A stretch of DNA of 44,827 nucleotides from Myxococcota bacterium. GTDB lineage: Bacteria; Myxococcota_A; UBA9160; UBA4427. Both the position numbers and the translations under genes were made by a program. This document shows, piece after piece, positions 2,468 through 32,000 of the stretch. The notes under the pieces are model-generated. The model was not told the origin of the DNA, ran no database searches, and worked only from the letters and a program-made list of their open reading frames with translations. Positions within the stretch are counted from its first letter, which is position 1; each line of letters starts with the position of its first letter. The stretch is taken from the NCBI GenBank assembly GCA_029941885.1, contig JAPYTP010000026.1, positions 1-44,827 on the forward strand. The letters are read 5' to 3'.

Positions 2468-3652
2468 GTGGACGTTTTCCAGAAATGCAGGGAGTTCACT
2501 CGTGTCCAGGACGCGCGCGACGCGGGCGTGTATCTGATGTATCGCGAGATCGGCTCGCCCCAGGATCCGGTCGTGACGATTAGTGGCCAGAAGGTCGTCA
2601 TGATGGGGTCGAACAACTACCTCGGACTGACGAGCCATCCCAAGGTCAAGGAGGCCGCGATCGCGGCTACCCGGAAATACGGCACGGGATGCGCGGGATC
2701 CCGCCTGCTGAACGGCACCCTCGACATCCATACCCGGCTCGAGGAGCGGCTCGCGGACTTCATGAATCGCAAGGAGACGATCGTCTTTTCGACCGGTTAC
2801 GGCGTGAACGTCGGCGTGCTCTCCTGCCTGCTGGACCGACACGACGTCGCCTTGCTCGACAAGATGGATCACGCGTCCATCCTGGATGGTGTTCGCCTGA
2901 GCTATGGGAAAGGGATCAAATTTCGCCACAACGATCCGGATGATCTCGAAAAAAAGCTTCAGCACGTGGGCGAAGGCAAGGGCAAACTGATCGTCGTCGA
3001 CGGAGTCTTCTCGATGGAGGGCGACATCGCGCCGCTGCCCGAGATCGTGAAACACAAACGGGCTTATGGGGCCGGACTCTTCGTGGACGAGGCGCATTCG
3101 CTCGGCGTCTTCGGCGACCACGGCCGGGGAGTTGCGGAGCATTTCGGCCTCGAAAATGACGTCGACCTCGTCATGGGCACGTTCTCGAAATCGTTGGCCA
3201 CAGTGGGTGGATTCATCGCTTGCGACGATCCGACCATCATCGATTTCATCAAGCACAACGCCCGGGCACAGGTCTTCACGGCCGCGATCCCGCCTGGTGC
3301 CGCCGCGGCGGTCGAGGCTGCCCTCGACATCCTCGAGGCCGAACCCGAACGACGCGCCCAACTCTGGGACAATACGAACTACATGAGGAATGAGCTCGAG
3401 GGGCTCGGATTCGAGACCTGCGGCTCTCAGTCGCCCATCATCCCTCTCCTCATCGGCGACGACATGGCGACCTACCAGATGGCCAATCGGCTCCAGGAAG
3501 AGGGCGTCTTCGTGAACGCTGTCGTGACACCGGCGGTTCCACCGGACCACGGAGTCATCCGCACGTCCTACATGGCCACACACACCCGCGAGCATCTCGA
3601 TCAGGCACTCGGGGCGATCGCCAAGGTCGGACGCGAGCTCTCAGTCATCTGA
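2468..3652 (+). CDS. Alpha-oxoamine synthase, probable serine palmitoyltransferase
   Basis: 394 aa, PLP-dependent fold-type I. The family condenses an amino acid with an acyl-CoA and releases CO2; members are BioF, Kbl, HemA and bacterial Spt. Seen in order: MGSNNYLGLTSHP (substrate entry), YGTGCAGSRLLNGTLDIH, DKMDHASILDG (PLP-stacking His), FVDEAHSLGVFG (PLP pyridine Asp and His) and GTFSKSLATVGG, whose lysine forms the Schiff base. The N-terminal form (DVFQKCREF) and SNNYLGL context resemble the Spt-like subgroup of Gram-negative bacteria more than BioF, and no biotin genes lie nearby. If so it makes 3-ketodihydrosphingosine, the first step of sphingolipid synthesis. GTG 2468 is chosen because GGGAGGA lies 6 bases upstream; ATG-like starts further up lack this. 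BioF or Kbl activity cannot be ruled out by reading. Confidence 0.85.
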   Translation: MDVFQKCREFTRVQDARDAGVYLMYREIGSPQDPVVTISGQKVVMMGSNNYLGLTSHPKVKEAAIAATRKYGTGCAGSRLLNGTLDIHTRLEERLADFMNRKETIVFSTGYGVNVGVLSCLLDRHDVALLDKMDHASILDGVRLSYGKGIKFRHNDPDDLEKKLQHVGEGKGKLIVVDGVFSMEGDIAPLPEIVKHKRAYGAGLFVDEAHSLGVFGDHGRGVAEHFGLENDVDLVMGTFSKSLATVGGFIACDDPTIIDFIKHNARAQVFTAAIPPGAAAAVEAALDILEAEPERRAQLWDNTNYMRNELEGLGFETCGSQSPIIPLLIGDDMATYQMANRLQEEGVFVNAVVTPAVPPDHGVIRTSYMATHTREHLDQALGAIAKVGRELSVI

Positions 3653-10944: not shown

Positions 10945-11985
10945 CTAGAGCACTTCTTCCGCGAGAACGCGTAGCGCGTTCACATCGCCGGTTCCAGCGA
11001 GCAGCGAACCCACATGACGCTTCGCACCCGCTTCCTTCCAGGCCTGCAGGCGATCACGAATTCGATCCGCAGATCCCACGAGCGCGACATCGTCGACGAG
11101 TGAGTCCGGCACCGCCGCCGCGGCCTCGCCTTTCTTTCCCTCTAGATACAGGTTCTGGATCTCGACCGCCGCTTCCTCGTATCCGAGACGCTTCGCGTAG
11201 TCGTTGTAGAAATTCTTGTCGCGCGCACCCATTCCCCCGATATAGAGCGCGAGATTGTGCTTGACCGGAATACGGCATTTCTCCAGGTCGTCACCCATGA
11301 TGACCGTGCAGAAGGGTGCGATCTCGAAATCCGCGAGGGACTTGTCCCCGCCGGCCTTCGAGAATCCCCTCGCGAGAGAATCTTCGAAAAGGTCGTAGCG
11401 CTCCGGATTCATCCAGACCGGGAAGACGCCGTCCGAGACCTCTCCCGCACACTCCATTCCGTTCGGAGAGATCGATGCGGTGTAGATCTGCAGCGCGGGA
11501 TCTCCGTGGAGGATGCTCTTGAGCGGTTTGCCGAGCCCCGAGCTGCCCTCACCGCGGAACGGAATCTGATAGTGATGACCCTCGTGCTGGAGACGCTCCT
11601 TGCGTTCAAGGATCGTGCGGATGATCGAGATGTATTCCTTGGTGCGGGTGAGCGGTCGACCGTAGGCGACACCGTGCCATCCCTCGACGACCTGCGGCCC
11701 CGACGGCCCGAGGCCCAGGACGAATCGTCCGCCGGAGAGGGCGTAGAGCGTCATGGCCGTCATGGCGGTCATCGCAGGCGTGCGTCCGGACATCTGCATG
11801 ATCGCGGTGCCGACGTTGATCTTCTCGGTCTGCGCCAGGATCCAGGCCGCGGGTGAGACGGCATCCGAGCCCCAGGCCTCCGCGGTCCAGACCGAGGTGA
11901 AACCCAGGTGCTCTGCTTCCTGAATCAGATCGATCGGGATACTCATGGTGGCCGGGGAATAGCCGGCGATGATTCCGAGCTTCAT
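10945..11985 (-). CDS. LLM-class flavin-dependent oxidoreductase (F420-type)
   Basis: 346 aa, TIM-barrel of the bacterial luciferase superfamily. Seen: MKLGIIAGYSPA opening strand, AEHLGFTSVWTAEAWGSDA (family motif with the E-W pair), KINVGTAIMQMSGRTPAMTAM and ALSGGRFVLGLGPSGPQVVEGWHG, which is the usual signature of F420-dependent LLM enzymes, and a C-terminal VGSADRIRDRLQAWKEAG. It probably transfers hydride between F420H2 or FMNH2 and an unknown organic substrate. AGGAGA sits 6 bases before the ATG. It is downstream of the histidine kinase on the same strand with a 123-base gap; no F420 biosynthesis gene is in the window. It is not a luciferase: its form is that of the single-subunit F420 group. 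Confidence 0.88.
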   Translation of the reverse strand: MKLGIIAGYSPATMSIPIDLIQEAEHLGFTSVWTAEAWGSDAVSPAAWILAQTEKINVGTAIMQMSGRTPAMTAMTAMTLYALSGGRFVLGLGPSGPQVVEGWHGVAYGRPLTRTKEYISIIRTILERKERLQHEGHHYQIPFRGEGSSGLGKPLKSILHGDPALQIYTASISPNGMECAGEVSDGVFPVWMNPERYDLFEDSLARGFSKAGGDKSLADFEIAPFCTVIMGDDLEKCRIPVKHNLALYIGGMGARDKNFYNDYAKRLGYEEAAVEIQNLYLEGKKGEAAAAVPDSLVDDVALVGSADRIRDRLQAWKEAGAKRHVGSLLAGTGDVNALRVLAEEVL

Positions 11986-16225: not shown

Positions 16226-16537
16226 TTAAGGAACGGTTCCCAGTTTGTCCCGAGCGGACTTCACCTTGTCTTCCATCCGCACCCCGGACCGATCTCGGCG
16301 ATCATCGATCTTGATCACCGTCCCGACTCGTTCCGCACCCGCGTCGAAGACCGCCTCCTGCATCGCACGAATCACCTCGAAGAGATCCTCGGGTTCTCCC
16401 TCGAGCGTCGTGAACATCGAATCGAGCTGCCAACGCACGCGATCCTGCTCCTCGAGCACACGCAGCGCGGCCGCCACGTACTCTGAAACTGAGATGCCGA
16501 CACCCAGTGGGGAGATACTAACTGCTGCAATCGCCAT
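16226..16537 (-). CDS. MTH1187-family thiamine-binding-like protein
   Basis: 103 aa, small alpha/beta protein. MAIAAVSISPLGVGISVSEYVAAALRVLEE and the central MFTTLEGEPEDLFEVIRAMQEAVFDAGAERVGTVIKIDDRRD are typical of the DUF77/YqgV (MTH1187) family, for which thiamine or pyrimidine binding has been reported for members. The TTLEG segment and the final IKIDDR are conserved. No clear ribosome site before ATG 16537. It sits between cysH and folK, 28 bases downstream of folK, and the three are probably in one transcription unit. Confidence 0.85.
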   Translation of the reverse strand: MAIAAVSISPLGVGISVSEYVAAALRVLEEQDRVRWQLDSMFTTLEGEPEDLFEVIRAMQEAVFDAGAERVGTVIKIDDRRDRSGVRMEDKVKSARDKLGTVP

Positions 16538-16565
16538 GGAGCGAGTGTACGCCCGCGCGCCGAGA

Positions 16566-17129
16566 TCAGCCTCCCTCCCTCGATTCGCCCACATCCGCTC
16601 GATTGCCCGGCCATCCGGGCGGTCTCGACCAGACCAGCACATCCCCCTTGTCGGGCTGCCTTCGCGCGATCTCGGCAACGGACAGGCCCACCACGGGATG
16701 CCGAAATTTCGGCGCCAGCTGCGCCATCGGCAGCATCACGAAGGCGCGTTCGTGGGCGCGGGGATGGGGGACGACGAGTTCCGGCAGCTCGATGCATTGA
16801 TCCCCGTAGAAGAGGAGGTCGAGGTCGATCCGCCGCGGCCCCCATCGAACGGCATCGGGTCCGCGGTCGCGGCCGAGCCGCGCCTCGATTCTCTGAAGTC
16901 GGTGCAGCAGTTCGAGGGGAGCGAGCCAGGTTCGCAGCTCGATCGCCGCGTTCAGATAGGCGGCCTGTCCTCCGGGCCCAACGGGCGCCGTCTCGTAGAC
17001 GGGGGAGGCCGCCAACAGCAGGAGATCCCTTTCGCTCTCGAAGGACTCGATGACCGCTGCAAAGGTCGCCTCTCGATCCCCGAGATTCGCCCCGACGGCA
17101 ACGTAGACGATCTCTCCACCGACCCTCAT
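16566..17129 (-). CDS. folK: 2-amino-4-hydroxy-6-hydroxymethyldihydropteridine pyrophosphokinase
   Basis: 187 aa. Transfers pyrophosphate from ATP to hydroxymethyldihydropterin, the step before dihydropteroate synthase in folate synthesis. Clear landmarks: VYVAVGANLGDREATF at the N-terminus, SPVYETAPVGPGGQAAYLNAAIEL, LHRLQRIEARLGRDRGPD, the signature RWGPRRIDLDLLFYGD, and PHPRAHERAFVMLPMAQLAP. ATG 17129 is chosen for GTGGGAG directly upstream. The C-terminus extends about 20 residues beyond the core, ending RADVGESREGG. Divergent from the aminotransferase gene, with a 202-base gap. Confidence 0.95.
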   Translation of the reverse strand: MRVGGEIVYVAVGANLGDREATFAAVIESFESERDLLLLAASPVYETAPVGPGGQAAYLNAAIELRTWLAPLELLHRLQRIEARLGRDRGPDAVRWGPRRIDLDLLFYGDQCIELPELVVPHPRAHERAFVMLPMAQLAPKFRHPVVGLSVAEIARRQPDKGDVLVWSRPPGWPGNRADVGESREGG

Positions 17130-17331
17130 CTCCCACTCCCTCGCGCGCGTTTTCCGCCGCGCCCTCGAAGGATAGATCGCGTCGGGTATTCTCCGCGCCC
17201 CCAACGGAGCCGATGATGCCTTCCCATTCCACGAATGACCGCCAGGACGCGCGCAGAGGTCCATGCCCCACCCAGACCCGGGGAGAATGGTGGCCGCATC
17301 GCTCCGCGAAGCGGCGCCCTACAATCACGCC

Positions 17332-18666
17332 ATGACCGCGTCCGAATCCAGGCAGATGACCGCCGACACCCTGGCCCCGGCACTCCGCACAAAAGTCCCC
17401 GGACCCGAGTCGCGCGCTCTTGCCGCACGGCTCGCGAGGGTCGAGAGCCGGAACGTGACCGCCCTCGACCCGGTTCCAATCTTCTGGGAACGAGCCGAGG
17501 GCGCCAATCTCTGGGACGTCGACGGCAATCTCTTCGTCGATCTCACGGCGGCGTTCGGCGTCGCAAACGTCGGCCATGCCCACCCCGATGTAGTCGAAGC
17601 GCTCACGAACCAGGCGGGCACATTGCTCCACGGAATGGGCGACGTCCACCCGCCGCGGGTGAAGGTCGAGCTGCTGGAACGCCTCGCGACTCTCTATCCA
17701 CGCGGCGATGCGGACGAGCCGCCTCGCGTCCGGACTGTCCTGTCCTCTTCTGGATCCGATGCCATCGAGATCGCGATCAAGACCGCCCTGCTCGCAACCG
17801 GACGCGCGGGTCTGCTCGCCTTCGAGGGCGCCTATCACGGACTCTCTCTAGGGGCCCTCGACTGCACCTGGCGTCGCGATTTCCGTGAACCCTTCGAAGC
17901 GAGACTGCCAGGGGCCACCCGTTTCGCGCCCTTCGACGACCTCGACGCGGTCCGCCGGCTCGCTGCGGAATCAGGAGACTCGATCGGCGCCCTGCTGGTC
18001 GAACCGATCCAGGGGCGCGGCGGCGAGCGCGTCCCTTCCGCTGGCTTTCTGCGAGGACTGCGCGAAATCTGTGACGAGACGGGTTGGCTGCTCATCGCCG
18101 ACGAGATCTACACCGGATTCGGTCGCACCGGTGCGATCTTCGCTTGCGATCACGAAGGTGTCATTCCCGACCTCCTGTGCGTCGGTAAGGGACTCGCTTC
18201 GGGAATGCCACTCTCGGCCTGTATCGGTCTCGAAAACGTGTTCGAGGCGTGGCCACGCTCCGAGGGAGAGGCACTTCATACCCAGACATTCCTCGGTCAT
18301 CCAGCAAGCTGCGCTGCGGCCCTCGCTTCTCTCGAAGTCTCCAGGCGGGACGACCTGCCGGAGCGCGCCCGCACCCTCGGCGCCGAGGTCCTCGAAGGGT
18401 TGCGAACACGACTCTCCTCCGTGTCCGCGGTGAGCGACGTCCGCGGCCTCGGTCTGATGATCGGAATCGAATGCACGACCCCGGAGATCTCCCTCGCCAC
18501 CACCGAGCGTCTTTTGGAACGGGGTTACGTACTCCTGCCCTCTGGCGACGGGGGGCGCGTACTCTCGCTCACTCCACCCCTGTCGATCGGCCGTGACGCG
18601 ATCATGAGCGCCTGCGACGCGATCGTCACGGGCCTTGAAGAGGCCGCGAGGGAGGGCCGCGCATGA
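17332..18666 (+). CDS. Class III aminotransferase, first gene of the LuxE-LuxC operon
   Basis: 444 aa, PLP-dependent fold-type I. Seen: FWERAEGANLWDVDGNLFVDLTAAFGVANVGHAHPDV (class III N-terminal), SSSGSDAIEIAIKTAL (phosphate-binding), AYHGLSLGAL, LLVEPIQGRGGERVPSAGF, LLIADEIYTGFGRTG with the Asp that pairs with the PLP nitrogen, and CVGKGLASGMPLSAC with the Schiff-base lysine (about 286). C-terminal HTQTFLGHPASCAAAL is the other class signature. Class III members act on omega-amino groups, for example 4-aminobutyrate, acetylornithine, lysine, diamines. ATG 17332 is used; ATG 17356 has AGG 5 bases ahead and is equally possible. The stop overlaps the LuxE-type start (ATGA at 18663), so translation is coupled. 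Confidence 0.92.
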   Translation: MTASESRQMTADTLAPALRTKVPGPESRALAARLARVESRNVTALDPVPIFWERAEGANLWDVDGNLFVDLTAAFGVANVGHAHPDVVEALTNQAGTLLHGMGDVHPPRVKVELLERLATLYPRGDADEPPRVRTVLSSSGSDAIEIAIKTALLATGRAGLLAFEGAYHGLSLGALDCTWRRDFREPFEARLPGATRFAPFDDLDAVRRLAAESGDSIGALLVEPIQGRGGERVPSAGFLRGLREICDETGWLLIADEIYTGFGRTGAIFACDHEGVIPDLLCVGKGLASGMPLSACIGLENVFEAWPRSEGEALHTQTFLGHPASCAAALASLEVSRRDDLPERARTLGAEVLEGLRTRLSSVSAVSDVRGLGLMIGIECTTPEISLATTERLLERGYVLLPSGDGGRVLSLTPPLSIGRDAIMSACDAIVTGLEEAAREGRA

Positions 18667-19802
18667 AGCGCGCCGAACTCGAAGCCGAGATCCTCACGTG
18701 GATCGCTGAGACGCCCTGGACTCCGGAACCCGCTCGTTTCGAGCGGCTCGCGCTGTCGCTATTCGAGTTCCAGTTCAGCGCCTGCGATCCCTACGCGCGG
18801 TTGTGTCGATCGATGGAGCGAATTCCCGGCACGGTCTCGCGCAGCGAGGACATCCCGGCGGTGCCGACGGGTGCATTCAAGGAGTTCGACCTCCGCTGTT
18901 TCCCAAAAGACGAAACCCTCCTCACGTTCTGCACGAGCGGGACCGCGATCGATCGCCGCGGTCGGCTTCACCTCGACACCCTCGCCCTCTACCAGGCATC
19001 CCTGCTCGCGAGCCTGCGACAGAACTTCCTCACCGATCTCGTGGGCCAGCGGGCAACGATGCGTTTCCTCGCACCCTCGGCGGAAGAAGCCGCCGATTCG
19101 TCGCTTTCGCACATGTTCGAGATTCTTCGGAGAGAGGAGGGCAGCCCCCGAAGCGGCTTCGATCTGTCGGAGGGGCGACTCGATCTCGAGGCCTTCGCAT
19201 CCGCGATCGAGGTCGCGCGGAGTGAGGGGCGCACCCTCGTCGTGGCGGGAACTGCTTTCGCATTCGTCCACCTTCTCGATGCCGTCGCAGCGGGCGAGGC
19301 GGGGGCGCTCGTCGGAGGTTTCGACCTGCCGGCGAATTCTCGGGTCATGGAAACGGGTGGCTTCAAGGGTCGCAGCCGGGAGATCCCGCGTGAGGTCCTT
19401 CGGGCGAAAATCGCACGGCTCTTCGGAATCGCAGAATCCCGCGTCGTGAACCAGTACGGCATGACGGAACTCGGCAGTCAATTCTACGACTCGACCCTCG
19501 TCGATCCGGATGGGCCCCGGCGAAAGCTCATCCCTCCCTGGACTCGCGTCCGTTTCGTCGATCCCGAATCGGGTCGCGACGTCGACGAGGGAGAGGTCGG
19601 AATGATCGTGATCCACGATCTGGCGAATACCGGAAGCATCGCGGCCCTCCAGACCGCGGATCTCGGCCGCGCAATCCTCGGCGCGAAGGGTGAGCGAATC
19701 GGTTTCGACGTGCTGGGTCGCGAGCTCGGCGCGGAGGCCAAGGGCTGCTCGATCGCGACGGACGTCATGCTCGCGGCTTCACGCAGAGGGAACTCGGGAT
19801 GA
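18663..19802 (+). CDS. LuxE-type acyl-protein synthetase
   Basis: 379 aa. LuxE activates a fatty acid with ATP to an acyl-AMP, and in the bacterial luminescence system passes the acyl group to LuxC. Seen: FEFQFSACDPYARLCRSM (typical N-terminal of the family), VPTGAFKEFDLRCFP, LLTFCTSGTAIDRRGRLHLD (P-loop-like segment of adenylate-forming enzymes), GTAFAFVHLLDAV, GGFKGRSREIPREVL, VVNQYGMTELGSQFYDS (the motif containing NxYGxTE), and the end GCSIATDVML, where LuxE has its acyl-carrying cysteine. It starts inside the aminotransferase stop and its own stop overlaps the next start (ATGA at 19799). Distinct from medium- or long-chain acyl-CoA ligases. Substrate chain length is unknown. Confidence 0.87.
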   Translation: MKRAELEAEILTWIAETPWTPEPARFERLALSLFEFQFSACDPYARLCRSMERIPGTVSRSEDIPAVPTGAFKEFDLRCFPKDETLLTFCTSGTAIDRRGRLHLDTLALYQASLLASLRQNFLTDLVGQRATMRFLAPSAEEAADSSLSHMFEILRREEGSPRSGFDLSEGRLDLEAFASAIEVARSEGRTLVVAGTAFAFVHLLDAVAAGEAGALVGGFDLPANSRVMETGGFKGRSREIPREVLRAKIARLFGIAESRVVNQYGMTELGSQFYDSTLVDPDGPRRKLIPPWTRVRFVDPESGRDVDEGEVGMIVIHDLANTGSIAALQTADLGRAILGAKGERIGFDVLGRELGAEAKGCSIATDVMLAASRRGNSG

Positions 19803-21121
19803 GCCGGCTCGAGATCGAATGGCCGGACGAGGGAGCTGAGCGCGTTCGAGCAGCTCGCGGGAGACTCTCCCTGGCGGGCACAGCCCTTCGCGCGATGTCC
19901 CTCGAAGAGCGGCTCACGGCCGTCGCTCGGGTACTCGAAGATTGGACGGCGGCGGATTCGCCCTGGCGCCGCGAGCTTGCAAGCACCCTCTCGGACGCGA
20001 CGCCCTTCGCCGCGGGAACGATCACGGAGGGGCTCGAGAGTGCTCTCCGCGCGTGGCGACCCGAGCGACTGGTCGAGTGCGCCCGTGCCGAGCTGGCCGT
20101 CACCTATCCCAACGGCGGTCGGACCCTGGTTCCCTTCGAGTGGACGACGGTCGTGACAGGAGGGTCGATCCCGATGCCGACGATCCTGTCGGCTCTGCTG
20201 CCGCTCGTCGTCGGCTCGCCCGTTCTGCTGCGCGAGACGTCGAAAGATCCCGTCACCGCGGGACTCCTCGCGCGCTCACTCGAGGCCCGGGATGAACGTC
20301 TCGCTCGCAGCTTCGAGCATCTGTCTTTCCGTGCAACCGATCGGGAGGCCTTCGACGCGGCGCTCGCGGCTCCTTGCATCGTGGCCACCGGATCCGACGA
20401 GACGATCTCCTCGATCTCGAATCGGCTGGGGCCCCTGCAGCGACTCGTCCCCCATGGCCACCGCTTCTCGATCGGCCTCTTGGGAGCCGAGATCGGCAAC
20501 GACCGAGCCGGACTCCAGGAGGCCGCCCGGGGCATCGCGTTGGACGTGGCACGTTGGGATCAGTCGGGCTGCCTGTCTCCCGTGGTCGTGTACCTGCTAG
20601 ACGTCCGAGCGGAGGACGCGGAAGAGATTGGGCGAACGATCGCTGAATCCCTTGCGGCTTTGTCCGCGTCGATGCCAAGAGGTCACGTCGACCCCGAGAC
20701 CCGCGCCCAGATTGCAAGCGAGCGCTCGGAAGCCAGGATGCGATGTGCATCGGGCCAGGCGTTGCTGTTCGAAGGTTCGGATCACACCGTGGTCCTCGAG
20801 AACGATGCCCAACCCCGCCCCGCCCCGCTGCATCGCTTCCTTCGCCTAATGCCCGTCGACTCGCAAGAGGCGCTCGTTGCCGCGCTCACGCCTTTTTCGG
20901 GTCATCTGTCGACCGTTGCGATCGCCGGGGTCCCGAATGGGACCCATACTACTGACTCATTGTTAGTAGATGTCACGGCCGATCTTTCGAGGTTAGACGT
21001 TTCGCGTATCACGCAACCGGGTCGGATGCAGACACCCCCGATCGATTGGCCTCATGACGGGTTGCCGCTGTTCACACCCATCGCGCGCTTCTCGGTATGC
21101 GACAGTTTTGGCCGCATGTAG
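19799..21121 (+). CDS. LuxC-type acyl-CoA reductase
   Basis: 440 aa. LuxC reduces an activated acyl group to the aldehyde with NADPH through an acyl-cysteine. Seen: a helical N-terminal part, VVTGGSIPMPTILSALLPLVVGSPVLLR, TSKDPVTAGLLARSL, then IVATGSDETI, HGHRFSIGLLG and the active-site DQSGCLSPVVVYL with the nucleophilic cysteine at about residue 258. The C-terminal part FLRLMPVDSQEAL and HLSTVAIAGV is usual in the family (pfam LuxC). Coupled to the LuxE-type gene, as LuxC and LuxE are in other bacteria, but the luxAB genes are absent, so luminescence is not indicated. The aldehyde may go to the upstream aminotransferase. Confidence 0.9.
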   Translation: MSRLEIEWPDEGAERVRAARGRLSLAGTALRAMSLEERLTAVARVLEDWTAADSPWRRELASTLSDATPFAAGTITEGLESALRAWRPERLVECARAELAVTYPNGGRTLVPFEWTTVVTGGSIPMPTILSALLPLVVGSPVLLRETSKDPVTAGLLARSLEARDERLARSFEHLSFRATDREAFDAALAAPCIVATGSDETISSISNRLGPLQRLVPHGHRFSIGLLGAEIGNDRAGLQEAARGIALDVARWDQSGCLSPVVVYLLDVRAEDAEEIGRTIAESLAALSASMPRGHVDPETRAQIASERSEARMRCASGQALLFEGSDHTVVLENDAQPRPAPLHRFLRLMPVDSQEALVAALTPFSGHLSTVAIAGVPNGTHTTDSLLVDVTADLSRLDVSRITQPGRMQTPPIDWPHDGLPLFTPIARFSVCDSFGRM

Positions 21122-22117: not shown

Positions 22118-22154
22118 TCATGCCCTCCGGCAAGGATCTGTCCGTGGAGGCGTG

Positions 22155-22640
22155 ATGTTCAGGCTCAGCAAAACGACGGATTACGGGATCGTCCTAATGG
22201 CCCAGCTCGCGTCCGATTCGAAGGACGCAGATGCGACGCCCGCGGGAGGCACGCGCGCGCTCCAGAACGCCCGCGAGCTCGCCGAGTCCTGTGACCTCCC
22301 TGTCCCCATGGTCAGCAAGATCCTGAAGGCCCTCGCGAAGGAGGGACTCCTGGTCTCTCAGCGCGGCCCGAAGGGCGGCTACAGCCTCGCGCGCGAGGCA
22401 GAGGACCTGCCGGTCGCCGAGATGATTCGCGTGCTCGAAGGTCCGGTAGCGCTCACGGATTGCGCGATTGGCCCGTTGCTCTGCGAACACGAGACGATGT
22501 GCGCCGTGCGCGCTCCTTGGCAAGAGATCAGTCGGGTCGTCGAACGCGCGCTCGAGAACGTCACGCTCGCGGATCTCGTGAGGGGACATTCCGGAACGAC
22601 GCAAACCTCGACTCCGACACTCCAGATCGAGGGCATCTAG
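22155..22640 (+). CDS. Rrf2-family SUF operon regulator
   Basis: 161 aa. [19 protein letters not shown] is the winged-helix start of Rrf2 proteins; [28 protein letters not shown] and [10 protein letters not shown] are the recognition helix and wing. Three cysteines in the C-terminal part (TDCAIG, LLCEHE, MCAVR) match the cluster-binding set of the IscR/SUF-regulator group, so it probably carries a 2Fe-2S cluster and represses the SUF genes when loaded. The strongest likeness is to the SUF-associated subfamily. ATG 22155 has GGAGG 4 bases ahead; GTG 22152 would leave no room. Promoter with its likely operator lies directly upstream; sufB follows after 94 bases. Confidence 0.9.
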
Positions 22641-22734
22641 TACTGCGGGGGCGGCTCAGTCGTCGCCCGACCGACCAACCCCACATTCCCACGACGAATT
22701 TTCCATCCGACGCGCTGACAAGGACGAAAGAAAG

Positions 22735-24195
22735 ATGGCGAACGCCAATCAAGACCTCGAGCGACTCGCGAAGCAAGACTACAAATACGGCTTCGTGACC
22801 GACATCGAAGAGGACCGCGCCGATCCCGGTCTGACGGAAGAGGTCGTGCGGCTGATCTCGTCGAAGAAGAGCGAGCCCGATTGGCTGCTCGAATATCGCT
22901 TGAAGGCATTCCGACGCTTTCGTGAGATGCTCGACGACGGACAGGCGGAACCCGGTTGGGCCAAGGTTTCTTACCCGAAGATCGATTTCGACAAGATCGT
23001 CTACTACTCCGCTCCGAAACAGCAGGTCAAGCTCGAGAGTCTCGACGATCTCGATCCCGAGCTGCTCGCGACCTACGAAAAGCTCGGGATTTCGCTGCTC
23101 GAGCAGAAGCGTCTGAACGGAATCGCGGTCGACGCCGTATTCGACAGTGTTTCGGTTGCCACGACCTTCAAGGCGGAACTCGAGCAGCAGGGCATCATTT
23201 TCTGCTCCTTTTCCGAGGCGGTCCAGAAGCATCCGGACCTCATCAAGAAATATCTGGGCAGCGTCGTCCCCTATTCCGACAACTTCTACGCCTGTCTGAA
23301 TGCCGCGGTCTTCAGCGACGGGTCCTTCGCCTATATCCCAAAGGGTGTTCGGTGCCCGATGGAGCTTTCGACATACTTCCGGATCAACGCTGCGGGTACA
23401 GGCCAGTTCGAACGCACCTTGCTCGTCGCCGATGAAGGCGCCTACGTCAGCTACCTCGAAGGCTGCACCGCTCCACAGCGCGACGAGAACCAGCTGCACG
23501 CCGCCGTCGTCGAACTCGTCGCCCTCGATCGCGCCGAGATCAAATATTCGACCGTCCAAAATTGGTACCCCGGCAACGAGGAAGGCGTCGGTGGGATCTA
23601 CAATTTCGTGACCAAGCGGGGCGCGTGCCGGGGCTTCCGGTCGAAAATTTCCTGGACCCAGGTCGAAACCGGCTCGGCGATCACGTGGAAATATCCCTCC
23701 TGTCTCTTGATCGGCGACGAGTCGGTTGGTGAGTTCTACTCGGTCGCGATGACGAATCACCGGCAACAGGCGGATACTGGCACGAAGATGATTCATATCG
23801 GCAAGAACACGAAGAGCACGATCATCTCGAAGGGAATCAGCGCCGGCCGGGGACAACAGAGTTATCGGGGTCTCGTTCGCATGGGCCCGAAGGCAGAAGG
23901 AGCGCGCAACTACAGCCAATGCGACTCGCTCCTGATGGGCGATCGGTGCGGCGCGCACACCTTCCCCTACCTCGAGGCGAGCAACCCGACCGCGACCGTC
24001 GAGCATGAAGCGACGACGTCGAAGATCAGCGACGATCAGCTCTTCTTCTGTCGCCAACGCGGAATGTCCGAAGAGGACGCGATCTCGATGATCGTGAACG
24101 GCTTCTGCAAAGACGTGCTTCGGGAGCTGCCCATGGAATTTGCGGTCGAAGCGCAGAATCTACTTTCGGTGAGCCTAGAGGGTGCAGTCGGGTAG
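22735..24195 (+). CDS. sufB: Fe-S cluster assembly protein SufB
   Basis: 486 aa, the usual full length. SufB forms the SufBC2D scaffold on which clusters are built. Landmarks: [19 protein letters not shown] at the start, [23 protein letters not shown]-like region, [50 protein letters not shown] (where the acceptor cysteine GCTAP lies), [26 protein letters not shown] and [33 protein letters not shown]. It begins 94 bases after the Rrf2 gene. A ribosome site (GGACGAAAGAAAG) precedes the ATG. Confidence 0.97.
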
Positions 24196-24290
24196 GCGAT
24201 CCGTTCCCCTCTTCAACGTCTCCCCGAGACGCCCGCAACTCTTGTCAGCGACCCTACGCATCCGTGCGGCGGGGTCACAGGAAAGAACCA

Positions 24291-25082
24291 ATGTCCGAAG
24301 CTCCACTCCTCAGCGTTCGCAATCTTCACGCCACCGCGGGCGAGACTCCAATCCTTCGAGGAATCGATCTCGAACTACGCGCCGGCGAGGTCCACGCAAT
24401 CATGGGACCAAACGGGTCCGGCAAGAGCACGCTTTCGAACGTCCTCGTCGGAAAGCCCGGCTACGAAATCACCGACGGTGAGATTCTCTTCCGCGGTCGG
24501 AACCTGGTCGAGATGGAGCCCGAGACGCGGGCGCGCGAAGGCGTCTTTCTCGCCTTCCAATATCCCGTCGAGATACCGGGCGTCGCAAACAACTATTTCC
24601 TTCGGACCGCGGTCAACGCCGTACGTGAACATCGGGGGCTGGATGAGTTGGACGCGATCGATTTTCTCACGATCCTCAAGGAGAAGATGAAGCTCGTCGA
24701 GATGCCGGAAGACATGATGTCCCGATCGGTCAACGAAGGATTCTCCGGCGGCGAAAAGAAACGCAACGAGATCCTTCAGATGCTGCTCCTCGAGCCCAGC
24801 CTCTGCATTCTCGACGAAACAGACTCGGGTCTCGACATCGATGCCCTGCGAATCATCGCCGCCGGCGTGAATCAGATGCGCTCGAGCGAGCGATCGATGC
24901 TTGTGATCACACACTATCAGCGATTGCTCGACCATATCGTTCCCGACCATGTCCACGTCCTGTCGAATGGGAAGATCGTCCGCTCTGGAGACAAGACTCT
25001 CGCCCTCGAACTCGAAGCGAAGGGCTATGGCTGGATCGAAGAATCGCAGGATAAAGCGACGGCACACGGGGCAGGCTCATGA
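24291..25082 (+). CDS. sufC: SufC ATPase of the SUF system
   Basis: 263 aa ABC-type ATPase, soluble partner of SufB and SufD. Walker [14 protein letters not shown]-loop region [20 protein letters not shown], typical of SufC; signature [13 protein letters not shown]; Walker [19 protein letters not shown]-switch [16 protein letters not shown] 24291 has AGGAAAG 8 bases upstream; the frame extends to 24264 but without a better start. Its last codons overlap the sufD start (ATGA at 25079). Confidence 0.97.
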
Positions 25083-26455
25083 GCGCTGCGCTCGAATCCC
25101 TGAATCGGCTCCGCGAACGAGTCGCTTCGGACGAAACCTTCGGCCTGCCGTCATCGCGACTCGCCGAACGCCTCGAGGCGCTCGCATCGATGGGCTTCGC
25201 GGCATTCGAAGAGCAGGGTTTTCCCACCCGCCGTCTCGAGGAGTGGAAGGGGACGAATCTCGCCCGCCTCGAGGCGATGGATTTTTCGCGGATCGGGCCT
25301 GGCTCGCCTCCCGCCGAGGCGAGGTCAATCGACCCGAGTGACGATCTACTCGCTGATGCGGACCTCGTCTTCGTCGACGGACGCCTGCTCGTCGCCTCGG
25401 CTGCCCGCGCGGACCTCCCGGAAGGCGTGCGTGTGCAGTCTCTCGCGGAGGCAGCGAGCGAGGATCCCGAGATTCCCGAGACCTACCTCGGCCGTCTTCC
25501 GGATCTCAAGAAAGAGAGTCTCGCGGCACTCCAGACCGCGTTCTTCGAAGACGCGGCGATCGTCCATCTCGATTCGGGTGTTCGTGCGACGCGACCGATT
25601 CGCATCCGCTCGATCGCAACAGCCGACGGACCGACGCAAGCCAGCGCATCGTTCCCACGACTACTCGTGGTCGCACGGCGTGATAGCGCAGCGACGATCG
25701 TCTTCGAGAGCGAGTCACGAGGTACGGCTCCCGGTCTGACCGCCTTCGTCGCGGAATATCATCTCGCCGCCGCCGCCCGAATCGAAACGATCCAGATTCA
25801 GTCCGAGGGGGCCGAACGGGTCCACGTAACGAGCAGTCACGCTCGCCTCGAGGGTGATGCGCATTTCGACTCGCACGTATTCAGCCTTGGGGACGGACTC
25901 GTCCGCAGCGAGCTCAAGATCACCCTGGACGCCCCTGGTGCCGAAACCCGCATGCGCGGATTCTTCCTGGGCCGCAACCGTGGACATGTCGACCACTTCA
26001 CGACCGTCGACCACGCCGTCGAAAATTGCTCGAGCGATCAGGAATATCGAGGCGTCCTCGGCGACGAATCCAAGGGCGTGTTCCGCGGTCGGGTCATCAT
26101 TCGACCCGACGCCCAGAAATCCGATGCACGCCAATCCAATGCGAACCTCCTGCTCTCCGATCGGGCCTCGATCGACACGAAGCCCCAGCTCGAAATCTAC
26201 GCAGACAACGTACGCGCAAACCACGGCTCGACGATCGGACAGCTCGACACCGAGGCGCTCTTCTTTCTGCGCGCACGCGGGATCGACGAAGCCGTCGCAC
26301 GGCTCGTGCTGACCCGGGGCTTCGCCCACGCCATCGTCGATGGGATCGCGGATGACGCTGCCCGACATTCCGTCGCGGAACTCGTCGACAACGCGCTCGC
26401 TTCGCTCTATCCCGGCGCCAGGTCCGAGACCGCCCCCGAAAAGGGAGGCGACTGA
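25079..26455 (+). CDS. sufD: SufD scaffold protein
   Basis: 458 aa. Paralogue of SufB within the SufBC2D complex. N-terminal part is helical ([22 protein letters not shown], the usual SufD WKYTNL-like segment). The core is the right-handed beta-helix: [74 protein letters not shown] and [30 protein letters not shown]. The C-terminus is less conserved. Start overlaps the sufC stop, and the stop overlaps the sufS start by one base (TGATG). Confidence 0.95.
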
Positions 26456-27675
26456 TGGGTTTCGACGTCGAGAAGATCCGCGCAGAGTTCCCGATCCTCA
26501 CAACCGAGATGCGAGGGCGAAGACTGACCTATCTCGATAGCGCGGCGAGTGCCCAGAAGCCGCGGGCCGTCATCGACGCGATGTCGGATTTCTATTCCGA
26601 CCACTACGCGAATATTCATCGTGGCGTCTACCAACTCTCCGCGGAAGCGACCGCAGAGTACGAGGCCGTCCGCACGCGGGTGGCGAAGTTCATCGGAGCC
26701 CGTGACCCGCGCGAGATCGTATTCGTTCGCAACGCGACCGAAGCCATCAATCTCGTCGTCCGCACCTGGGGCGAAGAGAATATCGGCAAGGGCGACGAAA
26801 TCGTTCTCACCGTGATGGAACACCACGCGAATATCGTCCCGTGGCAGATGTTGGCCTCACGGCGTGGCGCGACGATCCGCGTCGCCGAAATCAACGACGC
26901 GGGGGTGCTCGACGTGGAGCATCTGACGAGCCTTTTCAGCTCGCGCACGAAGCTGCTCGCCCTGGCCCATGTCTCGAACGCACTCGGCACGATCAACCCC
27001 GTCGCCGAACTCGTATCCCTCGCGCGCGAGCGCGGAATCGTCACCCTCGTCGACGGCGCGCAGGCCATACCCCATCAACCGGTGGACGTCGGCGCCCTCG
27101 ATTGCGATTTCTATGCATTCTCCGGCCACAAGGTCTTCGGGCCCAGCGGCGCGGGCGTGCTCCACGGACGCCTGTCACTGCTCGAAGCGATGCCCCCTTT
27201 CCTGGGTGGGGGCGACATGATCGAAAGCGTCACTTTCGAGGGCACGACGTTCGCCCCGGTCCCGCAGAAATTCGAGGCGGGCACCCCGGACATCGCGTCT
27301 GTGATCGGCCTGGGGGCCGCCATCGACTACCTCGATCAGATTGGAATGGACGAGATCTCGGCCTACGAGCACGAACTGCTGCTCTACGCCACGGATCGCC
27401 TTCAGAAGGTCCCCGGACTTCGAATTCTCGGAATGGCCCCGGAAAAGGCGGCCGTCCTTTCCTTCGTTCTCTCTAGCGCGCATCCCCACGACATCGGTAC
27501 GGTGCTCGACGGCGAGGGAATCGCTGTCCGCGCGGGACACCACTGCGCCCAACCCCTCATGAAGCGGATGGGCGTACCGGCGACCGCACGAGCCTCATTC
27601 GCCTTCTACAACACTCGAGACGAGATTGATCGACTGACCGACGCGCTGATCAAGACTGCGAAACTCTTTGCGTGA
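26455..27675 (+). CDS. sufS: Cysteine desulfurase SufS
   Basis: 406 aa, PLP-dependent, group II. Removes sulfur from cysteine as a persulfide on its own cysteine. Seen: YLDSAASAQKPRAVIDAM, NIHRGVYQLSAEAT, VMEHHANIVPWQ with the stacking His, VSNALGTINPV, LVDGAQAIPHQPVDV (Asp), YAFSGHKVFGPSGAGVL with the Schiff-base lysine, and RAGHHCAQPLMKRMG with the active-site cysteine in the SufS-type context. C-terminal SFAFYNTRDEID is standard. Coupled to sufD and, by a GTGA overlap, perhaps to sufU. Confidence 0.97.
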   Translation: MGFDVEKIRAEFPILTTEMRGRRLTYLDSAASAQKPRAVIDAMSDFYSDHYANIHRGVYQLSAEATAEYEAVRTRVAKFIGARDPREIVFVRNATEAINLVVRTWGEENIGKGDEIVLTVMEHHANIVPWQMLASRRGATIRVAEINDAGVLDVEHLTSLFSSRTKLLALAHVSNALGTINPVAELVSLARERGIVTLVDGAQAIPHQPVDVGALDCDFYAFSGHKVFGPSGAGVLHGRLSLLEAMPPFLGGGDMIESVTFEGTTFAPVPQKFEAGTPDIASVIGLGAAIDYLDQIGMDEISAYEHELLLYATDRLQKVPGLRILGMAPEKAAVLSFVLSSAHPHDIGTVLDGEGIAVRAGHHCAQPLMKRMGVPATARASFAFYNTRDEIDRLTDALIKTAKLFA

Positions 27676-29961: not shown

Positions 29962-30990
29962 GTGACTCCCTCCCTCGTTCCGCTCCCGGGCTCGATCGTC
30001 GTAACAGGTGCCAACGGCCAGCTCGGTCGGGCGCTCCTCGCGCGACTCGCGGAGCGCGGTCACTCCTCCGTGCGTGCACTCGTTCGATCGGAGCGCGCTC
30101 GCAACACGATCGTCGATCTCGGCCTGATGCCCGCTCCGGAAATTCGTCTCGTCGATTATTCGAGTCCCAAGCAGATGGGGATCGCGATCGACGGTGCCGA
30201 AGCGGTGGTCCATCTCGTCGGCATCATCAAGGAGATGCCCGGAACACGATATGTCGAGGCCCACGAGCAGACCTGCCACGCCCTTGCTGTCGCCGCGAGC
30301 CGTTCCAGCGTCGCACGGATCGTCTATCTCTCGATCCTCGGCAGCACCCCTGATTCCGAAAACGCGTGCCTCTCGTCCAAGGGTCGCGCGGAAACCTTGC
30401 TCCTCGACGACCGGGTTGCGACGACCGTGATCCGGGTACCCATGGTGCTAGGCGGAGACGATCCCGCCACCACATCGCTTCGACGTTCGGCGCAAGCAAG
30501 GAGACTGCGACTGGTCTCCGGAGGCCGGACGCTCCAGCAGCCGATCGATGCGCGTGATCTGGTTCGCGCCGTTCTCGCGGCTTGCAGCGCTGCCCCGGGG
30601 CGGGACCTCGCCCTCGACGCCGGCGGCCCGGTCTGCCTGTCCCATCGCAATCTGGTCCTGCGCGCCGCACGGCTCTGGCAGAATGAACCAAAGATCGGGT
30701 CGATCCCGATCGGCCTCGCTCGATTCGGGGTGGGAATCCTCGATCGTATCCTGCGAGAGCCTCCGGTCACCCGCACGATGTTCGACATTCTCCAGCACGA
30801 TGACCGTGTCGACCCCGAGGCATTCTGCAAGGCACTCGATATCGAACTCACCCCCCTCGACCAGACCCTGTCCGACTACGTCGGACCTTCGGGCGAGCAT
30901 CCCTCGCCGGTCGAGATTCCTTCGGACGATCGGTCGACGGCCAATACCCGGCTCGCCGAGGACCCAGAAGAAAGTCACGACGACCTATGA
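29962..30990 (+). CDS. NAD(P)-binding epimerase-like protein (extended SDR / complex I NDUFA9-like)
   Basis: 342 aa from a GTG start. Rossmann start IVVTGANGQLGRALLARLAERGH (GxxGxxG), VRALVRSE, then DYSSPKQMGIAIDGAEAVVHLVGIIKEM, IVYLSILGS, and a mid-part in which the YxxxK catalytic pair of active SDRs is not obvious (SSKGRAETLLLDD holds a lysine). It is similar to atypical SDRs such as NDUFA9/NmrA-like proteins that bind NAD(P) without proven catalysis. The final 40 residues are polar. Its stop overlaps the next gene (ATGA at 30987), so it is coupled to the membrane protein. Confidence 0.75.
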   Translation: MTPSLVPLPGSIVVTGANGQLGRALLARLAERGHSSVRALVRSERARNTIVDLGLMPAPEIRLVDYSSPKQMGIAIDGAEAVVHLVGIIKEMPGTRYVEAHEQTCHALAVAASRSSVARIVYLSILGSTPDSENACLSSKGRAETLLLDDRVATTVIRVPMVLGGDDPATTSLRRSAQARRLRLVSGGRTLQQPIDARDLVRAVLAACSAAPGRDLALDAGGPVCLSHRNLVLRAARLWQNEPKIGSIPIGLARFGVGILDRILREPPVTRTMFDILQHDDRVDPEAFCKALDIELTPLDQTLSDYVGPSGEHPSPVEIPSDDRSTANTRLAEDPEESHDDL

Positions 30991-32000
30991 CTGCACCCGA
31001 CTCGAACTCACAACAGATCCCCGAAGAAGAAGCAGCAACGCAGGGCCCCGCGCGCTGGCAACAGATGCTCCCGTGGACCATCACGATCGTGTGCTTCGGC
31101 TACCTCTACACTCGATTGTCCGGTGCCGCCGCCCGGGATGGTCTCGGCCTCTTCGAGTATTTCGCTGGCATCTTCGGGCGCGTGCCGTGGGGACAGTGGC
31201 TCGCGTTGATGATCCCCTACTCGGCCTTCTTCTTCCTGGTCGATTCGCTCATCGTCTGGCGCGTCGTGTCCTGGTTCAACACGCCGGTGAAGTATTCGGC
31301 GATCCTCCCGATCCGTGGCAGCTCCTACATCCTTTCAATCCTGAATGAACAGGTCGGCAAGGGCGCGATGGGCCTCTATCTGAATCGTCGCTATGGCGTT
31401 CCCGGCTGGGAAGTCGGATCGAGCATGATTTTCATCATGTTCTGCGAGTTTTTCTATCTACTCGGCTGGGCGACGATCGGCTGGTCGATGCGAAGCGCGG
31501 AGCTACCCGAGGTCTTCGGAGTCATTCCCTGGATCTCATTTTCTGCCGCGATCTTTCTCTGCGCGTGGCTGCTCTTCTTTCGTGGGCCGCTCGGAAACGG
31601 AGTCGATCTTCGGGACAAGCCGCTCTTCAAGAGCTTCCGCGAGGCGGGTCCGCTTCGATACCTGACGATCATCGTGCTGCGCTCCCCCGCGCTGCTCGCC
31701 GCGGTCGTCGTCTACACGTATGCCCTCAATCTGTTCGGCGTCGAAGCGGAGATGGGTCAGATGCTCGGCTATCTGCCTGTGATCTTCTTCGGAGCGGCAA
31801 CGCCTGGGCCCATGAGAACGGTCGCCATCACCCTCTGGGTGATCCTCTTCCCGGGAAACGAAGGCGAAATGGCCGCCTTCGGATTCGTCCAGCACAACTT
31901 CTTCATCTTCTTCAACGCGGCGATCGGTCTGCTCTTCCTGCGTCGCGCGAACCGCGAACTCTTTGGGGGAGAGAGTGGCGAGAAGAGTGACGCCAACTGA
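30987..32000 (+). CDS. Polytopic membrane protein, possibly flippase-like (LPG synthase TM family)
   Basis: 337 aa with about eight TM helices. The pattern ILPIRGSSYILSILNEQVGKGAMGLYLNRRYGVPGWEVGSSMIF recalls the conserved stretch of lysylphosphatidylglycerol-synthase-like flippases (UPF0104), from memory only. The N-terminal 20 residues are polar and cytoplasmic. A hydrophobic core then follows: WTITIVCFGYLYTRL, WLALMIPYSAFFFLVDSLIVW, and more. The C-terminal 89 bases overlap the end of the convergent 1009-residue gene, and a polar tail is encoded there. Function not known; coupling to the SDR-like gene suggests they act together on a lipid or an isoprenoid. Confidence 0.55.
   Translation: MTAPDSNSQQIPEEEAATQGPARWQQMLPWTITIVCFGYLYTRLSGAAARDGLGLFEYFAGIFGRVPWGQWLALMIPYSAFFFLVDSLIVWRVVSWFNTPVKYSAILPIRGSSYILSILNEQVGKGAMGLYLNRRYGVPGWEVGSSMIFIMFCEFFYLLGWATIGWSMRSAELPEVFGVIPWISFSAAIFLCAWLLFFRGPLGNGVDLRDKPLFKSFREAGPLRYLTIIVLRSPALLAAVVVYTYALNLFGVEAEMGQMLGYLPVIFFGAATPGPMRTVAITLWVILFPGNEGEMAAFGFVQHNFFIFFNAAIGLLFLRRANRELFGGESGEKSDAN

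Follow-up and report, generated by a model that had tools for sequence, protein, structure and literature searches.

The window analyzed here is a stretch of 44,827 nucleotides (positions 1 to 44,827 of the forward strand of contig JAPYTP010000026.1, assembly GCA_029941885.1) from a Myxococcota bacterium. It contains a unit of three consecutive genes encoding a class III aminotransferase (AT), a LuxE-like protein and a LuxC-like protein (Table 1). All three reading frames are intact and are joined by ATGA overlaps at 18663 (AT/LuxE) and 19799 (LuxE/LuxC). The Pfam matches, all above their cut-offs, place the products among the class III aminotransferases, the LuxE superfamily and the LuxC family, in agreement with the initial annotation. 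An in-frame ATG for the AT gene is also present upstream at 17263, and the alignment of relatives begins at about 17332. Searches of the organism's own genome with the window proteins retrieved a single LuxE, a single LuxC and nine further class III AT matches, which represent eight genes with 29 to 41% identity to the unit AT. Among the best 80 relatives, AT and LuxE overlap by exactly 4 bases in 61 of 72 measurable loci, and LuxE and LuxC, with start codons assigned mechanically, in only 22 of 77. Scans of the operon gave one promoter-like site (21140; 0.5 expected) and one terminator-like site (2.5 expected).

Table 1. Coordinates, strand and supporting matches of the three-gene unit and of other features in the window
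Feature	Position	Strand	Evidence
AT (class III aminotransferase, distinct subfamily as judged by residues; L171, R229, K286, S412)	17332..18666	+	Pfam PF00202 (Aminotran_3), 2.2e-95, 320 bits (cut-off 30.5)
LuxE-like acyl-adenylating / acyl-protein enzyme with C-terminal Cys362 and a predicted PaaK-type fold	18663..19802	+	Pfam PF04443 (LuxE), 1.5e-12, 47.6 bits (cut-off 24.9)
LuxC-like acyl-thioester reductase, Cys258	19799..21121	+	Pfam PF05893 (LuxC), 7.1e-40, 137.6 bits (cut-off 21)
Probable serine palmitoyltransferase	2468-3649	+	Best NCBIfam match NF047600, 548.9 bits (curated cut-off 640)
F420-dependent luciferase-like oxidoreductase	10948-11985	-	TIGR03559, 380 bits (cut-off 335); homologue in 18/80 related loci
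MTH1187-family thiamine-binding protein, beside folK	16229-16678	-	TIGR00106 above cut-off; homologue in 23/80 related loci
folK (HPPK), divergent neighbor, outside the unit	16566..17264	-	Pfam HPPK, 4.1e-36
Rrf2 regulator and suf genes, downstream, outside the unit	22152..27675	+	SUF regulator and SufB equivalogs above cut-off
Protein with no match in Pfam or NCBIfam	30987-31997	+	Sister-order homologues about 3-4 kb downstream of the unit (L097, L098, L103, L178)

Conserved residues were read from three alignments, consisting of the window with 24 (A1) and with 23 (A2) of the 29 other nearest-kin loci, and of 33 hand-picked rows (A3). In the LuxE-like protein (379 amino acids, no acyl carrier protein [ACP] match in the Pfam scan), TSGT at 91-94, YGM-E at 265-269, Asp333 and Cys362 are invariant in 25 rows, and in a wider set of 26 rows Ser92-Gly93, Tyr265-Gly266-Met267, Glu269, Asp333 and Cys362 are all kept. 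A search with its profile found the solved LuxE 7xc6_E (2.3e-30) and aligned the Gly-Cys-Ser. The predicted model has a mean pLDDT of 90.8, with values below 50 for residues 359-362 around the cysteine. In the PDB, the closest folds listed are PaaK-type adenylating enzymes (TM-score about 0.6), with PaaK itself, 2-hydroxyisobutyryl-CoA ligase and a phenazine biosynthesis protein at the top; the 50 matches listed do not include 7xc6_E. In the LuxC-like protein, Cys258 is invariant (24/24 rows), and its profile retrieved the solved 7xc6_A at 2.2e-22 with the LuxC cysteine region aligned.

The two proteins thus share their Pfam families, the LuxE C-terminal cysteine and the LuxC cysteine region with LuxE and LuxC of luxCDABE (7xc6), but they fall far below the bioluminescent equivalogs: NF052244 (LuxE) gave 55.7 bits against a cut-off of 550, and NF052251 (LuxC) 34.1 bits against 750. 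The LuxE-like protein is 21.9% identical to an Escherichia coli K-12 plasmid record, presumably a lux construct. No luciferase was found in the window, which was the only part of the genome searched for LuxAB; the one luciferase-like protein recognized there is an F420-type luciferase-like monooxygenase, so that the absence of luxAB pointed out in the initial annotation holds for the window. Bioluminescence and membership in luxCDABE were rejected on these grounds.

The AT has the catalytic residues of its class and an altered set of substrate-binding residues. Searches yielded 155 unit ATs, of which 4 under 250 residues were dropped, leaving 100 distinct rows. The pyridine-binding Asp257 is present in 151/151 unit AT rows, the pyridoxal phosphate (PLP) Lys286 in 33/33 hand-picked rows, and Lys286 and Arg229 together in 100/100 distinct rows, indicating class III membership. 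Position 171 is Leu in 95, Val in 3 and Met in 2 of the distinct rows; position 412 is Ser in 66, Ala in 11, Gln in 9, Thr in 7, Gly in 4, Val in 2 and Cys in 1, and never Arg. Solved gamma-aminobutyrate (GABA) aminotransferases (GabT) have Arg, Glu and Arg at the corresponding positions. Compared with them, a hydrophobic residue replaces the Arg after His-Gly, Arg replaces the Glu of QGEGG, and the Arg before PPL is lost, so the Arg/Glu/Arg set of GABA aminotransferases and ArgD is lacking in the unit AT. In E. coli GabT numbering this set is Arg141, Glu211 and Arg398, as in glutamate-dependent class III enzymes. The own genome has eight other class III genes; Arg/Glu/Arg is present in three (L180, L181 and L185/L188; L numbers are our locus labels), five have other residues and none has Arg229. 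ATs unlinked to LuxE show the same residue set as linked ones (position 412 is not readable in the truncated L209), and one from a Gemmatimonadota genome has Glu at 412.

By residues 171, 229 and 412 the unit AT is, as judged from the alignments, a distinct class III subfamily, in which the carboxylate-binding set appears to have been rebuilt: Arg141 to a hydrophobic residue, Glu211 to Arg, and Arg398 lost. Carboxylate-bearing acceptors would therefore be unlikely substrates, and Arg229 may hold the amino donor, taking over carboxylate binding. The best PDB matches of the AT are GABA and putrescine aminotransferases, and synthesis of putrescine or another diamine from GABA-like acids would be compatible with the likeness to the putrescine enzyme. 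Family resemblance also suggested hopanoid amination, ALA synthesis and biotin as possible settings, which were set aside.

The unit is widespread among relatives. LuxE was found in 58/60 nearest-kin genomes (the own genome included) and in 31/31 of the good-quality ones, in 86/90 genomes of the class and in 224/282 genomes drawn from the phylum, presumably Myxococcota; the nearest-kin, named-genome and phylum samples share genomes. Of 14 control genomes, one gave a LuxE match, which was below the cut-off. In named genomes, 284 related stretches were retrieved, and the best 80 of them came mostly from Myxococcota, Myxococcales and Deltaproteobacteria, with a few from Verrucomicrobia, UBP4, BRC1 and Gemmatimonadota. 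The complete AT-LuxE-LuxC order was present in 29/30, 73/80, 28/28 and 20/39 LuxE loci of four partly overlapping sets; the own locus belongs to the first and third, and the fourth was chosen from distant families, with one mistaken fetch excluded. Of the loci without the complete order, 1, 2, 0 and 0 were at contig edges and 0, 5, 0 and 19 were misses. A failure of the three genes to stay together elsewhere had been named at the outset as the observation that would overturn the idea of a functional unit, and these counts clearly show the opposite. In one single-contig metagenome-assembled genome (L093), the LuxE match stops at residue 310 and a downstream LuxC was not found, a pattern of either a decaying unit or an assembly error.

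The genes also occur together where they are not adjacent. For the 282 phylum genomes, the searches for the three proteins scored 4 to 7 candidates per genome; the AT threshold of 1e-115 was set after a contrast test of 26 genomes and sits in a gap (weakest listed positive, 7.6e-122; best AT in 13 LuxE-negative genomes, 2.4e-102). The AT was found in 220 genomes; LuxE and AT were both present in 218 and both absent in 56, agreeing in 274. LuxE and LuxC were both present in 208 genomes, all three genes in 204 and none of the three in 52. In the contrast test, a unit-type AT was present in 13/13 LuxE-positive and 0/13 LuxE-negative genomes; the best AT of the latter had Arg/Glu/Arg in 12 cases and Ser/Thr/Val in one. 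In 10 of the 13 LuxE-positive genomes, LuxE and the AT lay on different contigs or more than 0.6 Mb apart; of these ten, eight had been chosen because their LuxE locus had no AT, and two as members of the same family. Likewise, in a Gemmatimonadota genome whose LuxE-LuxC genes have no AT next to them, a unit-type AT is present elsewhere.

The three unit proteins co-diverge more than do linked housekeeping genes. Distance correlations within the unit were 0.70 to 0.77 (AT-LuxE), 0.70 to 0.72 (AT-LuxC) and 0.73 to 0.78 (LuxE-LuxC), compared with 0.44 to 0.53 for unit proteins with folK, 0.17 to 0.29 with cysH and -0.09 to 0.07 with sufB from the same loci (n = 46, 36 and 36 loci, respectively). 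Over all 74 loci, for which there was no control, the three unit proteins correlated at 0.89 to 0.93.

Because the catalytic motifs are intact, the operon order is kept in most relatives, the genes co-occur across the phylum and co-diverge, and a precedent exists in TamA and TamH, the unit probably constitutes a self-contained pathway from a carboxylate to a primary amine. The LuxE-like protein would convert a carboxylic acid and ATP to acyl-AMP and then transfer the acyl group to its own Cys362. The LuxC-like protein would take the acyl group onto Cys258 and, using NAD(P)H, reduce it to an aldehyde, which the PLP-dependent AT would convert to the primary amine. The genes, the catalytic residues, the co-occurrence and the altered AT residues are observed; the chemical steps and their direction are what we infer from them. 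The initial annotation had proposed such an acid-to-aldehyde-to-amine unit with a fatty acid as the substrate; the unit itself and the fit of the enzyme families stand, and the fatty acid is not supported, since the scores are far below the bioluminescent cut-offs and five plasmid relatives pair LuxE-LuxC with a short-chain dehydrogenase/reductase (SDR). The probable serine palmitoyltransferase that it had cited for amino-lipid chemistry carries little weight, as the gene lies about 14 kb away and scores below the curated cut-off.

The closest precedent is in tambjamine YP1 biosynthesis of Pseudoalteromonas tunicata, for which assays of TamA and TamH are described that lead from an acid and ATP through a thioester and NADH reduction to an aldehyde and, by class III transamination, to a primary amine (PMC9594044). 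The unit would follow the same logic of acid, thioester, aldehyde and amine. In TamA, however, the adenylation domain and an ACP form a single protein, and in TamH the transaminase is joined to a relative of the acyl-ACP reductases of cyanobacteria, whereas the unit consists of three separate proteins without an ACP, uses a LuxE/LuxC pair and is found across most of the sampled phylum genomes. Membership in TamA/TamH or the TamH family was rejected, since the ACP-ANL and TA-TR fusions are absent and the reductase and adenylating enzyme belong to other families. The acid-to-amine chemistry is thus already known from TamA/TamH; what would be new here is a version with unfused LuxE/LuxC and AT.

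In PigE of prodigiosin biosynthesis, the transaminase also reduces a thioester, according to PMC8341465. PigE unites both activities in one protein, unlike the unit, and PigE membership was rejected (NF053554, 257.7 against a cut-off of 850). EhpF and EhpG of D-alanylgriseoluteic acid biosynthesis are an adenylating enzyme without the C-terminal domain and a reductase acting together on a carboxylic acid; the substrate is an aromatic dicarboxylate, and no aminotransferase takes part. Two structures of a phenazine biosynthesis protein, 3l2k and 3hgv, presumably EhpF, are among the PDB matches of the LuxE-like model. Outside bioluminescence, LuxE and LuxC also occur in flagellin glycosylation islands of Aeromonas and Enterobacteriaceae, where luxE/luxC are described together with an ACP, FabG and glycosyltransferases and, for Aeromonas, a class III AT is reported in group I islands and luxE/luxC in group II (PMC7874193, PMC4875605).

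Several observations weigh against the acid-to-amine reading. Six LuxE-positive phylum genomes had no AT at the threshold used and two had an AT without LuxE; 16 LuxE-positive genomes had no LuxC match and five had LuxC without LuxE, mismatches that perhaps reflect sensitivity, because the LuxC profile was built from one order. The presence/absence counts and distance correlations are phylogenetically non-independent, across genomes and pairs, respectively. In the distant-family set, 19 of 39 loci lack a detectable neighbor on one or both sides. One BRC1 genome carries LuxE but neither an adjoining LuxC nor a unit-type AT, and a genome whose contig ends in LuxC (L107) likewise shows no unit-type AT, although its sister L110 has an AT behind LuxC. 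Conversely, five Verrucomicrobiota genomes have a unit-type AT with no LuxE within about 7 kb upstream or 1.3 to 8 kb downstream, the regions searched. Arg is aligned at 229 as well in an AT that an Azospirillum plasmid encodes outside the unit (L248, 236 bits), so Arg229 alone is not diagnostic. Finally, the five annotated plasmid loci (L190, L191, L192, L193 and L196) pair LuxE-LuxC with an SDR and contain no AT, indicating that the LuxE-LuxC pair is not tied to amination.

A tree of 70 LuxE rows shows strong clustering of the AT label, with 7 changes for 45 rows against a shuffled mean of 20.8. The plasmid LuxE relatives (32 to 41% identity for the annotated ones) form one clade of seven (support 100/99), all labeled as SDR partners in the tree; five were checked, and L194 and L195 are without annotation. 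The hosts of the LuxE-LuxC-SDR plasmids are Pantoea (twice), Azospirillum, Priestia and Lactiplantibacillus, thus both Gram-negative and Gram-positive. In three of the five loci a transporter gene directly adjoins, encoding either a member of the purine/pyrimidine permease family (NF037981 above its cut-off, PbuX below) or an ABC importer, whose binding protein in Priestia is SsuA-like but below the cut-off. In four further Myxococcota loci (L157, L171, L176 and L177), LuxE-LuxC is accompanied by a thioredoxin-reductase-like flavoprotein, in some cases near isopropylmalate-synthase-like or LeuD-like genes (partly assigned by eye); this may be another undescribed use of the pair in the phylum. 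Given SDR and flavoprotein partners besides the AT, the LuxE-LuxC pair seems to serve acid reduction in general, with exchangeable partners that use the aldehyde, and a fatty acid substrate should not be assumed.

The nature of the acid was weighed on this basis. A small aliphatic, aromatic or heterocyclic acid, yielding a small amine or a cofactor-like metabolite, is quite possible but doubtful. It would suit the plasmid relatives, with their SDR in 5/5 loci and adjoining transporters, the PaaK, 2-hydroxyisobutyryl-CoA ligase and phenazine biosynthesis folds of the LuxE model, and the conservation amid housekeeping genes, which would fit primary metabolism. The plasmid relatives are a separate clade, however, whose substrate may differ; the fold similarity does not fix the substrate, and the residue at AT position 171 is hydrophobic. 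The other proposal, a fatty or lipid-like acid converted to a fatty amine or an amino-lipid that is exported, is in our view slightly less likely. Bioluminescent LuxE and LuxC use fatty acids. In family f18 (Bradymonadales-like, as deduced), FabH, confirmed by Pfam, lies within 2 kb of an unlinked AT in 4/7 loci (L228, L230, L231 and L235), and LuxE or LuxC adjoins an ABC-2-type transporter gene, recognized by Pfam in L141 and L237 and by likeness in L143 and L145. In a Gemmatimonadota locus (L109), LuxC is likewise followed by an ABC-2 gene, and in a UBP4 locus (L104) by a lipid-flippase-like LPG_synthase_TM gene. TamH aminates C7 to C14 fatty aldehydes, and TamA with TamH gives a C12 amine from the C12 acid (PMC9594044). 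The three remaining f18 loci showed no FabH close to the AT, though, and the FabH of L228 is on the opposite strand. The f18 loci give thin hints of a lipid-like product. The low equivalog scores and the recurrent neighbors in the window's order (folK, cysH and suf) also argue against a lipid.

Two readings would deny the pathway as such. The unit might run in reverse, with the AT deaminating an amine and LuxC/LuxE oxidizing the aldehyde to the acid, since aminotransferases are reversible and the best PDB matches of the AT are the GABA and putrescine enzymes. This is very improbable: LuxE would need to form ATP from acyl-AMP, for which we know of no precedent, ordinary aldehyde dehydrogenases oxidize an aldehyde in a single step, and no amine importer was recognized beside the unit, as far as gene starts were read by eye. 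It is at least as improbable that the AT is a mere neighbor serving a separate pathway. AT and LuxE/LuxC are indeed unlinked in some families, and LuxE-LuxC occurs without an AT on plasmids; yet co-occurrence persists where the genes are unlinked (10 genomes), and in the 282 genomes 218 with both stand against 8 discordant ones.

Returning to the acid-to-amine pathway, the finding is larger than that first claimed, because the trait marks most of the sampled phylum genomes. All three genes are carried by 204/282 of them with no described product found, and the AT occurs in only 6/194 Verrucomicrobiota genomes, a sample that includes a known carrier used as the center. No publication on an AT-LuxE-LuxC unit was found in the open-licence PMC literature, as judged from listings. 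We tentatively suggest, without holding it to be probable, a near-core Myxococcota pathway in which an acid is converted by LuxE/LuxC and an AT with a rebuilt carboxylate-binding set, possibly with an unusual donor, to a primary amine typical of the phylum, perhaps a membrane or exported amino-lipid. Identifying the amine would account for a trait shared by much of the phylum. If the pathway is as proposed, it would provide a natural three-enzyme acid-to-amine cascade for biocatalysis with no evident carrier protein, and it would define a subfamily of class III aminotransferases that recognize their substrates through a new set of residues.

Clustering of neighbors within the window's order turns up housekeeping genes, with folK, cysH and suf recurring beside the unit. 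Homologues were found in 54/80 relatives' loci for folK, many of them short, in 40/80 for rrf2 and in 39/80 for sufB; sufC, sufD and sufS are presumed in the downstream cluster from gene order. A role in pyrimidine salvage, considered from the MTH1187-family protein and the SDR-type relatives, was dropped with nothing further backing it. In small Verrucomicrobiota genomes of 2.2 to 2.5 Mb (L262-L265 and L267-L270), the unit-type AT adjoins pyruvate dehydrogenase-like genes.

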